A stretch of 64,000 bases of DNA from Streptomyces sp. RPT161 (lineage in GTDB: Bacteria; Actinomycetota; Actinomycetes; Streptomycetales; Streptomycetaceae). Below are positions 24,983-28,413 of this stretch, in pieces. Each line of letters opens with the position of its first letter. Position 1 is the first letter of the stretch. Location of the stretch: positions 186,001-250,000 of the forward strand of contig NZ_JAPZVN010000003.1 of the NCBI RefSeq assembly GCF_027533845.1, in the 5' to 3' direction. The notes beneath the pieces are model-generated. The model saw only the letters and a list, made by a program, of their open reading frames with translations, did not search any database and had not been told where the DNA came from. The position numbers were made by a program, and so were the translations under genes.

Positions 24983-25080
24983 GCCATCCCTTTCACGCGG
25001 ACCTGGTGGACACACCCATTGATCTGATGCGGCCTCATGGTACTGATGTGGCAAGGAAGTTGTGGATCACCGTGGGTGTA

Positions 25081-25947
25081 TCAGGTGTCCCGCAGGATGG
25101 TCCGCAACAGGTCGCGGGTGCCCGCCTGGGTGAGCCCCTCGGTACGCAGCCGGTCCATCAGCCGGGCGTACTGCGCCACTTCGTCGCGCTTGTCGAGGTA
25201 GAGCGCGCTGGTGAGCTGTTCCAGGTACACCACGTCGGGCAGATCGCTCTCCGGGAAGCGCAACATGGTGAACGCCCCGCACTCCGCCGCGTGGCCGCCG
25301 AACTCGAACGGCACGACGTGCAGCGAGACATCGGGGTGGTCGCTGAGTTCGAGCAGCCGCCGCATCTGCCCGCGCATCACCTCCGGTCCGCCGAAGGGCC
25401 TGCGCAGCGCGGCCTCGTCCTGCACCACGACCAGGTGTGGCGAACGCTCTCCGGTGAGGATCTTCTGGCGGCGCATCCGCAGGTCGACGCGGCGCTCGAC
25501 CTCGTCGTCGCAGGCGTTCGGCTGGCCGAGGCGGACTACCGCGCGGGCGTACTCGTCGGTCTGCAACAGACCGTGTATGAACTGCACTTCAAAAGTGAGG
25601 ATGTGGGACGCGGACTCCTCCAGGCCCACATATGTCTGGAACCAGCCGGGCAGCACATCACCATAGGAGTGCCACCAGCCCGCGACGTTGGCCTCCCTGG
25701 CCAGCGCGAGCAGCGCCTCGCGGTCGGTCTGACCGGTCACCCCGTAGAGCGTGAGCAGGTCGGCGACATCGCGTTCCTTGAAGCTCACCCGCCCCAGTTC
25801 CATGCGGCTGATCTTGGACTCGGACGCCCGGATCGAGTACCCGGCGTCCTCCCGGGTGACGCCCTTCGACTCCCGCAATCGGCGCAGTTGGGAGCCGAGA
25901 AGGATCCGGCGGACCACCGATCCACTCCCCGGCTGATCTGTCGTCAT
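25081..25947 (-). CDS. Helix-turn-helix (XRE) regulator with DUF5753 domain
   Basis: A 288-residue DNA-binding protein. Residues 14-66 form a Cro/CI-type helix-turn-helix (LGSQLRRLRESKGVTREDAGYSIRASESKISRMELGR). The remainder is the Streptomyces DUF5753 sensor-like domain (IHGLLQTDEYARAVV, VVVQDEAALRRPFGG, VSLHVVPFEFGGHAA). Such proteins (WhiJ-like) pair with a DUF397 protein and often an ATPase, both present here, and influence development. ATG 25947 has GAGAGG upstream. It is divergent from the ATPase, with a spacer full of GTGCA motifs that it may bind. Confidence 0.93.
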   Translation of the reverse strand: MTTDQPGSGSVVRRILLGSQLRRLRESKGVTREDAGYSIRASESKISRMELGRVSFKERDVADLLTLYGVTGQTDREALLALAREANVAGWWHSYGDVLPGWFQTYVGLEESASHILTFEVQFIHGLLQTDEYARAVVRLGQPNACDDEVERRVDLRMRRQKILTGERSPHLVVVQDEAALRRPFGGPEVMRGQMRRLLELSDHPDVSLHVVPFEFGGHAAECGAFTMLRFPESDLPDVVYLEQLTSALYLDKRDEVAQYARLMDRLRTEGLTQAGTRDLLRTILRDT

Positions 25948-26033
25948 GTGGTTAGCCTCTCCATCCATGGACCAGGCGAAGTCTGTCACCTCCCGGCCGC
26001 GGCGGACTCCGCTTCCCGCCAGCTGTAACCGAA

Positions 26034-26137
26034 CGGTGCACATGAGTCTGCCCGTGCATATGCCAACCCGGCATCTGCACGTGCATCCGCTCTTGCATAC
26101 TGCCTGCCGGTTGGGGACGATGTGAACCGTGCACTTG
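26034..26137. promoter_or_regulatory. Cluster of GTGCA motifs in the divergent XRE/ATPase promoter region
   Basis: Three copies of a near-identical 11-mer lie in the same orientation: CGGTGCACATG (26034), CCGTGCATATG (26052) and CCGTGCACTTG (26127). Between them are the palindrome TGCACGTGCA (26076-26085) and TTGCA at 26094. The same 11-mer recurs upstream of the DUF397 gene. This looks like a binding array for the adjacent helix-turn-helix regulator. Confidence 0.6.
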
Positions 26138-26171
26138 TCGACCAGGCCCACAACAGCCCGAGGTGTCGGTC

Positions 26172-26663
26172 ATGGGAAGTGACGGCTCGGTGGCGCTCGC
26201 GCCCTTATGGGACGTGGTGCTCCCGTCCGAGAGACTGGCGTCGTCGGCCTGCGAGCTGACCGCCGCCTACGAATCGGTGCGGGAGGCGCGGCACTTCACG
26301 TACACCACGCTGCGCCGGTGGGAGCTGTGCGAACTGGTGGACAACGTCGCGCTGGTGGCATCGGAACTCGTCACCAACGCGCTGCGGCACGGCGTCGGGA
26401 CGGACACGGGGCCGCACCCGACGGCCGCGCAGACCTCACCGCCCCCCGTGGTCCGGCTCGGCCTCGCGCGCTGGACCTCGCGGGTGGTGGTTTCGGTACG
26501 CGATCCCAGCAGCCAGGGGCCGGTGCCCAGGGCCCCCGACTTCACCGCGGAGTCGGGCCGGGGGCTGCATCTGATCGCGTCGTGCTGTGAAACCTGGGGG
26601 TGGCATCCCCTCACGGGTGCGGGGAAGGTCGTCTGGGCTCTCTTCCCGGCCCCGTCCGACTAA
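26172..26663 (+). CDS. Anti-sigma-factor-type ATP-binding protein (GHKL/HATPase)
   Basis: A 163-residue RsbW/SpoIIAB-like single-domain ATPase or kinase. The N-box is ASELVTNALRHG (about 59-70), VSVRDPSSQGPVPR corresponds to the D-box, and SGRGLHLIASCCETWGW is the G2 box. Streptomyces has dozens of these beside XRE-DUF5753/DUF397 pairs. They may bind sigma factors or modulate the regulator. ATG 26172 has GAGG 8 bases upstream, and GTG 26163 is an in-frame alternative. It is divergent from the XRE gene. Confidence 0.9.
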   Translation: MGSDGSVALAPLWDVVLPSERLASSACELTAAYESVREARHFTYTTLRRWELCELVDNVALVASELVTNALRHGVGTDTGPHPTAAQTSPPPVVRLGLARWTSRVVVSVRDPSSQGPVPRAPDFTAESGRGLHLIASCCETWGWHPLTGAGKVVWALFPAPSD

Positions 26664-26757
26664 CTGATTCCGCTTGGCTTCTGGCTCTGGTTCCGCTTCG
26701 GCCCGGCCGCGTGGCTTCGCTTCCGCCCGCGGCCGCGCTTTTGTGGAATACGGGATT

Positions 26758-27003
26758 CTACGGAGCGCCCTGGACCAGATGGTCGAACTCCCCGTCCTTC
26801 ACCCCGAGAAGCAACGCCTCGATCTCCGCTCTCGTGTATATCAGTGCGGGGCCATCGGGAAAACGGGAGTTGCGTACCGCGACATCGCCACCAGGCAGCG
26901 CGGCCAACTCGACGCACGTCCCCTGGGAGTTGCTGTGCCGGCTTTTCTGCCAGACGGCGCCCTGGAGTTCACTCGCTGCCATGCCGTTGTATGTGCGGCG
27001 CAC
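26758..27003 (-). CDS. DUF397 protein, partner of the XRE regulator
   Basis: An 81-residue protein made up almost entirely of one DUF397 domain: ELQGAVWQKSRHSNSQGTCV, ELAALPGGDVAVRNSRFPDGPALIYTRAEIEALLLGVKDGEFDHL. DUF397 proteins act as small partners or antagonists of neighbouring XRE-DUF5753 regulators. The GTG at 27003 follows AGGAGG at 5-base spacing and fixes the start; a downstream Met lies at residue 8. It is convergent with the ATPase gene. Upstream it carries the same CCGTGCA motif found in the XRE/ATPase spacer. Confidence 0.92.
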   Translation of the reverse strand: MRRTYNGMAASELQGAVWQKSRHSNSQGTCVELAALPGGDVAVRNSRFPDGPALIYTRAEIEALLLGVKDGEFDHLVQGAP

Positions 27004-27051
27004 GGATACCTCCTGGGACGTGCGGTTCTCACCGGCGGGAATGATAGCGCG

Positions 27052-27078
27052 CTGCACATGCAGAAGCCCGTGCAGTTG
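27052..27078. promoter_or_regulatory. GTGCA motifs upstream of the DUF397 gene
   Basis: CTGCACATGCAG (27052-27063, a 5+2+5 inverted repeat) and CCGTGCAGTTG (27068-27078) lie about 50-75 bases before the DUF397 start. They match the motif repeated in the XRE/ATPase spacer, which implies common control. Confidence 0.55.
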
Positions 27079-27150
27079 ACTGTGCGACAACTCTCAGTAG
27101 TGCCACGGAATTCGGGCGCCGGCAACTCCCTGTATGCGCCACGATGCGGT

Positions 27151-27411
27151 ATGGAATGGAAAACCACCAGTGATGTGAAGGCGTTCGACGCGGCCGCCGG
27201 GGACTTCCCGCGCGCCCGACCCGCCCAGCACACGGCGCAGCTGACGGTCTGCGCCCGGCCGCGCCAGCGGGGACCGCGCGTGTTCGACGACGGCGATCCG
27301 GAGTTCGGCCGGCGGACCGGCACAGTGGTCCGCAGCGAACGCGCTCTATCCGCTGGGCGAGTTGGCGCCGTCCGCAGCGGGTACTTCAGCGAGGGGCGCT
27401 TCGAGCCGTGA
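27151..27411 (+). pseudogene. Probable decayed N-terminal remnant of an acetyltransferase-like gene
   Basis: An 86-codon frame whose first 55 residues (MEWKTTSDVKAFDAAAGDFP, RARPAQHTAQLTVCARPRQRGPRVFDDGDPEFG) resemble, to my memory, the N-terminus of Streptomyces GNAT proteins of the type 'WKTTSDVAEFLAAAGEFLRARPAENTVLLT'. Later residues do not resemble a fold, and the frame ends after 86 codons where the family has about 280 residues. No ribosome-binding site is evident. It reads as a degraded gene left beside two intact acetyltransferase genes. The assignment is by remembered similarity only. Confidence 0.42.
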
Positions 27412-28413
27412 TCAACTGACCGGTGCCATACGGGAGTCGATCACCCGGCACAGCCGGTAGGCGACCGGGGTGAAGCCGAGGGCCGGCCAGTGTCCCGCCG
27501 AAAGCGGGGAGGCGGTCGGCCAGTTGGCCGTCATATGGCGGTATCCGCGGTCGTACGCCCAGGCCAGCGCGGTGGCCAGCAGCACCCGGCTGACCCCCTC
27601 GCCACGCGTGTCCGGCTCGACGTACGCCTCGGCCAGCTCGACCGCCGACTCGGGGGTGAAGGGGCCCGGGCGGGCCGGGGTGAGCACCACCATTCCGGCC
27701 TCCTCACCGCGGCGAACAGCGAGCCAGGCCGCGCTGTCCGGCTCGGCGAGCGCCTCGGCGTAGCGGGTGCGCAGCCGGTCGAGCGCCTCCTGGGGCTGCG
27801 GCTGGAACACCGCCGCGTGCCGCCGGTGTTCGGCCGAGGCGGCGGCCATCCGCCCTATCGGCCCGAGATCCGCGGCGCCGGCCCGGCGGATGGACAGCCC
27901 GTCCACCCCGCGCGGCTGACGGCCGCTGGCCCGCACCGGCAGCAGCCCGCGCACCCGTTCAAGGCCGAAGCCGAGCCGGAACCAGGCCATCGCCACGGTG
28001 TCGTCGGCGGGCAGGTCGACGTGGTGCACCAGCCGGCCGCCCGCCACGAACCGTTCGGCGACCGCCGCGTACAGCGCGCGCAGCGCCTCGGGCTCCCGGC
28101 CCGGGTGCAGTGCGTGCCCGCCGTGGGCGACCAGCGCGGAGTGCGGATGCCGGTGCTCGTCCGGCCGGTCGTCGCCGTCCTGCTGGTCCGCGGCGAGGAT
28201 GAGGTAGCCACCGAGCCTGCCCCGCCCGCCACGCGCCGCCACCGCCTCGGTGCCCGGTCCGGCGAGCAGCTTGGCCAGCGACTCCTCACCGCCGTAGGGG
28301 TCTTCGGGCGCCGGATATCCGCGTGGCCGGCGGGCCCGGGTGTACCAGCGGTCGAGGAGGGCGGCGGACTCCGGGATGTGCTCGGCCGTCATCGGCGCGA
28401 TGGCGAAGGTCAT
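27412..28413 (-). CDS. GNAT-family N-acetyltransferase
   Basis: A 333-residue protein with two acetyltransferase-like halves. The second half is the active-looking one (about 195-333): LSIRRAGAADLGPIGRMAAAS, then AYVEPDTRGEGVSRVLLATALAWAYDRGY with the acetyl-CoA loop R-G-E-G-V, and WPALGFTPVAYRL at the end. The first half (TAEHIPESAALLDRWYTRARRP) is diverged. The start is ATG 28413 but the upstream region is weak in ribosome-binding signal. The substrate is unknown. It lies 14 bases downstream of another GNAT gene, so the two are probably co-transcribed. Confidence 0.84.
   Translation of the reverse strand: MTFAIAPMTAEHIPESAALLDRWYTRARRPRGYPAPEDPYGGEESLAKLLAGPGTEAVAARGGRGRLGGYLILAADQQDGDDRPDEHRHPHSALVAHGGHALHPGREPEALRALYAAVAERFVAGGRLVHHVDLPADDTVAMAWFRLGFGLERVRGLLPVRASGRQPRGVDGLSIRRAGAADLGPIGRMAAASAEHRRHAAVFQPQPQEALDRLRTRYAEALAEPDSAAWLAVRRGEEAGMVVLTPARPGPFTPESAVELAEAYVEPDTRGEGVSRVLLATALAWAYDRGYRHMTANWPTASPLSAGHWPALGFTPVAYRLCRVIDSRMAPVS

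Follow-up and report, generated by a model that had tools for sequence, protein, structure and literature searches.

A phased TGCA site as candidate operator of an XRE-DUF5753 regulator at a WhiJ/AbaA/BldB-type locus of Streptomyces sp. RPT161

Genes of the locus and the conserved spacer site

The window analysed here, a 64-kb stretch of the Streptomyces sp. RPT161 genome (contig NZ_JAPZVN010000003.1, positions 186,001 to 250,000), carries a gene for an XRE-DUF5753 regulator, a divergent gene for an AbaA-like ATPase of the anti-sigma type and, farther upstream, a gene for a BldB-like DUF397 protein, and a repeated TGCA site, the candidate operator considered in this study, precedes both the ATPase and the DUF397 genes (Table 1). 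The two domains that define the XRE-DUF5753 (WhiJ) family, the helix-turn-helix (HTH) domain HTH_31 and DUF5753, exceeded the Pfam cut-offs, and the AbaA-like and BldB-like neighbours expected of this family were present, the locus being a WhiJ/AbaA/BldB trio. Proteins 96-97% identical to those of the window were found in S. rubrisoli and S. ferralitis, by which the genus was judged to be Streptantibioticus, and an XRE relative at E<=1e-90 occurred in at least 294 of the 297 genomes of the family when eight candidates per genome were scored. The ATPase gene was divergent from and upstream of the XRE gene in 80/80 named relatives, and a DUF397 homolog lay farther upstream on the XRE strand at 78 of these 80 loci. 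In the window, too, DUF397 is upstream of XRE, with the opposite-strand ATPase gene between them, and the two-gene XRE and DUF397 operon of the proposed type II toxin-antitoxin pairs (PMC2701414) was not found there. A TTA leucine codon at 26205-26207, close to the start of the ATPase gene, suggests bldA dependence of the ATPase, and an in-frame TTA was also found in 53/80 orthologs.

Within the spacer between the XRE and ATPase genes, sequence comparison indicated that the conserved unit is TGCA-N8-TGCA-N2-TGCA. Its inner part, TGCACGTGCA, was present in the spacers of all 80 relatives, and the 24-mer GATGCAAGGGCAGATGCACGTGCA, the commonest form on the XRE strand, was identical in 68 of 81 sequences (the 80 relatives and our own), the window carrying a variant of it. 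When 33 dissimilar spacers were aligned with our own, the best-conserved 22 nt were 26076-26097, tied with the stretch one base over, with a mean majority frequency of 0.98 against 0.69 for the median 22-nt stretch. Distances of 6, 12, and 18 bp between TGCA words dominated the spacers (86, 85, and 85 pairs, counts inflated by relatedness, compared with about one in Markov shuffles), which indicates that the half-sites are phased. The same architecture was found upstream of the DUF397 orthologs, where 55 of 65 loci had it in full in either orientation, seven with one mismatch, and three lacked it; the 65 loci are the 78 mentioned above minus 13 with less than 200 nt of upstream DNA. Some of these DUF397 operators look lengthened by an extra 12-bp repeat (e.g., L144). 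The degenerate copy O2 occupied the same place in the window and in 5/5 near relatives examined, separated from O1 by 17 nt and with a middle block that is degenerate except in one species; it had a conservation of 0.59, under the spacer median, and in the sequences compared it seems restricted to this branch of the tree.

Table 1. Genes, putative operator copies, and predicted promoters of the locus (coordinates within the window)
Feature	Coordinates	Strand	Basis or remark
XRE regulator gene, HTH_31 (N-terminal) and DUF5753 (WhiJ-like)	25081..25947	-	Pfam PF13560, E 4.7e-15; PF19054, E 1.1e-59
XRE start codon ATG	25945-25947		Chosen by ribosome site GGAGAGG
Predicted XRE extended -10 promoter TGACAGACT	25980..25988	-	Such a box in 80/81 spacers
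O2, degenerate second copy, TGCA-N8-CTCA-N2-TGCA	26037..26058	-	17 nt after O1, XRE side; holds words 1 and 2
O1, putative core operator, TGCA-N8-TGCA-N2-TGCA	26076..26097	-	80/80 orthologous spacers
Predicted ATPase promoter TTGCAT-N17-GACGAT	26093..26121	+	-35 position inside O1
Lone TGCA half-site (word 3)	26130..26133	+	Near predicted ATPase start point; not a full operator
AbaA-like HATPase_c_2 (anti-sigma-type ATPase) gene	26172..26663	+	PF13581, E 9.3e-12
DUF397 (BldB-like) gene	26758..27003	-	PF04149, E 3.8e-19
DUF397 start codon GTG	27001-27003		Chosen by ribosome site GGAGG
Predicted DUF397 -10 box TATCAT	27041..27046	-	6 nt after O3
O3, putative operator before DUF397, TGCA-N8-TGCA-N2-TGCA	27053..27074	-	Most of CTGCACATGCAG and the TGCA of word 4

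An earlier note on this DNA had proposed a different unit, the 11-mer CSGTGCANWTG, as the operator of the XRE-DUF5753 regulator. Its description of the letters was borne out, since the window contains exactly four such words, all on the plus strand (26034-26044, 26052-26062, 26127-26137, and 27068-27078), while dinucleotide shuffles gave a mean of 0.61 and none of 100 shuffles reached four, a comparison that is partly circular as the consensus was built from the same four words. Both palindromes that it had listed are also there, TGCACGTGCA at 26076-26085 and CTGCACATGCAG at 27052-27063, each being the inner pair of its site, O1 and O3 respectively. More telling is the underlying TGCA word, which occurs six times in the spacer of about 225 bp, three times in the 22 bp before DUF397, and 162 times in the whole window. 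The notion of a site common to the spacer and to the DUF397 upstream region thus stood, together with its comparative tie to the XRE subfamily, but the 11-mer as the operator did not, as it was carried by only 2/80 orthologous XRE/ATPase spacers and by 2/65 DUF397 upstream regions. In terms of the conserved unit, the outer half-sites of O2 account for words 1 and 2, word 3 is a lone half-site, and a half-site of O3 accounts for word 4. The note had also called for a genome-wide count of the motif, which supported an unusual local cluster (89 matches in 7.69 Mb, compared with 30 for the reversed pattern) but no mark of other XRE-DUF5753 loci, given that 1 of 16 such loci carried the 11-mer within 1.5 kb on each side, roughly 1 kb away from the domain.

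Occurrence of the site across and within genomes

The strict pattern TGCACGTGCA-N8-TGCA was found in 220/294 genomes of the family among the matches listed, a scope that also applies to the genus counts by eye given below (f- and g-numbers denote the families and genera of the compared genomes). In genus g10, 126 of 150 genomes had exactly one match per strand and 148 had at least one, with about 280 matches in total compared with about 32 for the reversed pattern, and a cross-check of 18 g10 genomes placed 27/27 matches, in 16 genomes, within 2 kb of the best XRE hit. Strict matches were found in 3/70 genomes of g14, where the middle block is TTCA (TGCA-N8-TTCA-N2-TGCA in 20/20 loci fetched), which is suggested as the reason for their scarcity. 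Among g3 genomes, a variant, TGCACGTGCAGATTCCCGTGCA, recurs in several (e.g., G041, G045, G053, G061, and G069).

A class-wide set of 196 genomes was also searched, with 12 candidates scored per genome and XRE relatives taken among the matches listed. In the XRE-bearing genomes outside the family, 35 of 49 strict matches had a listed XRE relative at a distance of up to 1.5 kb, compared with a chance of about 0.0015 per site. A looser pattern, in which a bare TGCACGTGCA was counted as a site, was found at 19 of 20 loci from families f8, f15, f16, f17, and f32, regions that were chosen by hand and not at random, while none was expected from shuffles. The gene order is reshuffled across these families, the ATPase gene being divergent in most f15 loci and DUF397 preceding XRE in f17 and f32, yet in 15/20 loci a site remained no more than 250 bp upstream of an ATPase or DUF397 gene that had been detected, as judged by eye. 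In genera g47 and g57 of f16, a TGCA pair was found 1.06-1.40 kb upstream of XRE at 8/9 loci, and at the g47 loci where both were visible this distant pair was upstream of DUF397. Four g31 genomes (G310, G366, G410, and G426) each had three strict operators, and in each genome the three lay near different XRE relatives, at most 1.5 kb away.

Specificity within the genome of strain RPT161 was examined with a sequence-only model, R1, built from 32 sites that included our own O1 and O3, with 150 of 5048 first-look candidates scored. Among the candidates scored, the top three places were O1 (E 3.8e-6), the spacer of a paralogous locus (1.2e-4, outside the training set), and O3 (0.0095), followed by an unrelated place on contig C47 (0.03) and by O2 (0.26, outside the training set). 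Exact matches to TGCA-N8-TGCA-N2-TGCA gave seven rows at six places, namely O1, O3, the paralog spacer, and three others. The paralog spacer belongs to the nearest paralogous trio, in which the XRE protein is 62% identical and the site lies between the divergent ATPase gene and a DUF397-XRE pair; its near-identical operator is at C65:10379-10400 (about 1003-1026 of L051). The architecture was present at 2 of the 17 DUF5753 loci of this genome, the window triplet and this nearest paralog, which have the helix KISRxELGRVSFKERDV in common, and no site was found at the other 15, even with the looser pattern. To judge from the sequences, the regulator of the closest paralog probably binds the same operator, and the two regulators may cross-talk. 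Considering this distribution, the phased TGCA site is very probably the operator of this XRE subfamily.

Promoter register and alternative readings

The region yielded no consensus sigma-70 promoter, which would be expected if an activator is needed, and the promoters were therefore defined by conservation. On the ATPase strand, TTGCAT inside O1 was followed at N17 by NANNNT in 79/81 sequences. On the DUF397 strand, of the 65 loci, the 59 with TGCACGTGCA showed xTGCAx-N17-TATGAT in 49 cases, N18 in five, and N29-31 in five, the last spacing being compatible with one additional 12-bp repeat. The hexamer at the DUF397 -35 position was ATGCAT or ATGCAG in 47/59 sequences. Outside the family an N17/18 register was observed at nine loci, of which five from f15 had TTGCAC-N18-CATSAT, one from f32 and two from f17 had TTGCAT-N17-CATGAT, and the f8 locus had TTGCAT-N17-CATGCT; at further loci the frame was shifted, with N18 or N19, and no such register was found at the f16 g69 loci examined. 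The earlier note had assigned control of all three genes to the site, and this holds in part, as O1 and O3 lie on the predicted ATPase and DUF397 promoters but the predicted XRE promoter lies apart, its extended -10 box being 87 nt from O1 in the window and between 87 and 174 nt from it in orthologs.

Taken together, these observations make it likely that the site is a composite operator bound by the local XRE-DUF5753 regulator, which would activate the ATPase and DUF397 genes. Half-sites phased at 12 and 6 bp would receive the regulator, whose main targets would be the divergent ATPase gene through O1 and the DUF397 gene through O3, while O2 would be a degenerate extra copy towards the XRE promoter. 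Placed on and just upstream of a poor -35 box, the regulator would recruit RNA polymerase to the two promoters in a class-II-type manner, a mode favoured by the register, by the poor -35 hexamer of DUF397, and by the precedent of WhiJ9 described below. If the site is indeed the operator of the subfamily, we consider activation somewhat more probable than not. The DUF397 protein would in turn bind the regulator and restrain it, closing a negative feedback that we infer by analogy with BldB in S. venezuelae, and the TTA codon would add a bldA gate on the ATPase.

Several observations weigh against this activating composite operator. The conservation counts are inflated because the 80 species are related, and the register count left out 6/65 DUF397 loci without an exact core, the nearest relatives of the window among them. 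The DUF397 promoter of the window itself departs from the register rule, as O3 is reversed and spans the spacer and -35 region, from about -19 to -40 of the predicted promoter, a repressor-like position. Outside the family, 22 of 45 XRE-bearing genomes had no strict match near a listed XRE (23/45 had one), and genomes without XRE had a background of 31 strict matches in 132 genomes, a rate similar to that of the remaining 14 matches in the 45 XRE-bearing genomes. At the f16 g47/g57 loci, a TGCA pair was found within the 330 nt before XRE in 0/9 cases, and in our own genome the TGCA-rich place at C47:127289-127310 outscored O2 among the candidates scored with R1. Furthermore, the WhiJ9 site is found not at -35 but 113 bp upstream of the start of iosA, whereas the site of the window includes the -35 position.

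Some of these points are shared with a reading in which the operator and the regulator are the same but the effect is repression, with binding at -35 blocking RNA polymerase at the ATPase and DUF397 promoters until the DUF397 protein or a ligand relieves it. The overlap of O1 with the -35 position and the placement of O3 would suit it, WhiJ has been proposed as a repressor of development until a small partner relieves it (PMC4255298, available passages), and transcription of whiJ9 rose 2-fold on loss of WhiJ9; yet in the same study iosA activation requires WhiJ9 (PMC10294661), and the ATGCAT or ATGCAG hexamers of DUF397 are so far from TTGACA that a factor seems needed. We regard repression as plausible but rather doubtful. 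That another transcription factor binds the site and that XRE merely adjoins it appears improbable: in some f16 genomes the site precedes DUF397 and is missing from the XRE promoter, and sigmaE is reported to bind at two probable orthologs, SCO3423 and SCO3424 (available passages of PMC10771440 and PMC6767563), but the site co-occurs with the XRE subfamily across families, it is present at the closest paralog locus and absent from the 15 other DUF5753 loci, and no sigmaE-like GAAC-N-GTC box was found in the two regions searched, the spacer and the DUF397 upstream region.

The conservation of the block could have another cause altogether, such as an overlapping coding sequence, an RNA element, or a repeat bias, bearing in mind that RNA leaders can appear as long conserved non-coding blocks. 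This is very improbable, because O1 is upstream of both predicted start points and the block is found again ahead of DUF397 and where the genes are ordered differently; against an RNA element in particular, no Rfam family matched at the gathering threshold in 25000-28000. Least probable of all, and hardly credible, is that CSGTGCANWTG itself is the recognition unit in one fixed orientation. Four copies within 1.05 kb speak for it, when 0.61 would be expected per 64 kb, but it is rare in the orthologous spacers, the most conserved block of the spacer falls between the 11-mer words, and of the 85 further copies in the genome the first 30 checked included none with the TGCA architecture within 1.5 kb.

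Comparison with known proteins and regulatory systems

No solved structure was matched by sequence at E<=0.01. By fold, the closest solved HTH domains were those of the controller proteins C.AhdI, C.BclI, and C.Esp1396I and of ClgR, with Foldseek E-values above 0.001 and a likeness confined to the HTH. Restriction-modification controllers and ClgR are short XRE proteins that work from operators near promoters. A predicted model of the DUF5753 domain alone (25081-25665), with a mean predicted local distance difference test (pLDDT) score of 88.8, resembled structures of the phospholipase D superfamily, with a best Foldseek E of 8.3e-4, the one match at or below 0.001, and a best VIA-align Z of 11.6 at a root-mean-square deviation of 2.9 over 142 residues, VIA-align re-ranking Foldseek's own list. 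All 50 VIA-align rows listed for this domain are, going by title, presumably members of that superfamily. The HxKxxxxD catalytic motif was absent from the DUF5753 domains (0/31 sequences, and 0/26 in a longer alignment). The model also resembled the C-terminal domain of the archaeal transcription regulators TrmBL2 (Z 10.0) and TrmB (sugar-binding domain, Z 7.9), whose HTH is of a type different from that of XRE.

From this modelled fold, DUF5753 may serve WhiJ-type regulators as the part that binds a signal or a partner, and if it is a dead phospholipase-D-type domain, these regulators would gain a ligand- or partner-sensing domain; the available literature passages naming DUF5753 do not mention such a fold. 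A broader and more tentative possibility is that the TGCA code is ancient in one XRE-DUF5753 subfamily that spans several actinomycete families, that it lies at both -35 positions, and that one regulator thereby co-activates an effector and its own antagonist in a self-limiting loop, with DUF5753 acting, as in TrmB, as a sensor of the phospholipase D type without catalytic activity.

By description and gene content, and not by sequence, the window locus fits SCO3421-SCO3423-SCO3424 of S. coelicolor (available passages of PMC4255298) and is taken to be a member of the SCO3421 orthologous group, of which an anti-sigma-like neighbour gene with a TTA codon, as found in the window, is a feature. 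The share of window orthologs with this codon (53/80) is lower than the 12/14 given for SCO3423, and the passages of that paper on the three genes describe no operator. Orthology with SCO4676/4677 was dropped, since SCO4677 and SCO4676 are described as co-transcribed and not divergent (PMC3896431, available part), and the fourteen S. coelicolor XRE/DUF397 pairs are reported in another arrangement, XRE then DUF397 (PMC10364602, available part). A published operator for the locus was not found in the literature searched, from which subscription journals were mostly absent; the Scr1/Scr2 paper (PMC6262351) contained none of the binding-site words searched, and the core words used as literature strings gave no Streptomyces title among the matches listed.

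Streptomyces contains large sets of paralogous genes of the WhiJ, AbaA, and BldB types, which influence development as well as antibiotic production, and in the literature searched WhiJ9 of S. venezuelae is the one WhiJ-type member with a mapped DNA target; the earlier note had stated that the targets of most of these developmental regulators were not known to it. According to PMC10294661, WhiJ9 binds three direct repeats in the iosA-whiJ9 spacer, as measured by surface plasmon resonance, the loss of BldB strongly raises the abaA paralogs and iosA, and BldB hetero-oligomerises with BldB9. Like the window, the WhiJ9 system combines a WhiJ-type XRE protein, three repeats in an intergenic spacer, and neighbours of the AbaA/BldB kind. 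The two differ in the repeat, which is CGNNCTCAAC for WhiJ9 and TGCA-N8-TGCA-N2-TGCA here, and in the second copy before DUF397 in the window. Altogether, repeat binding in the WhiJ-type family was already known from WhiJ9, and the putative operator of the window adds to this family an exact 22-bp site with a list of two target promoters and their register, all for a member that is probably its most widely conserved one.
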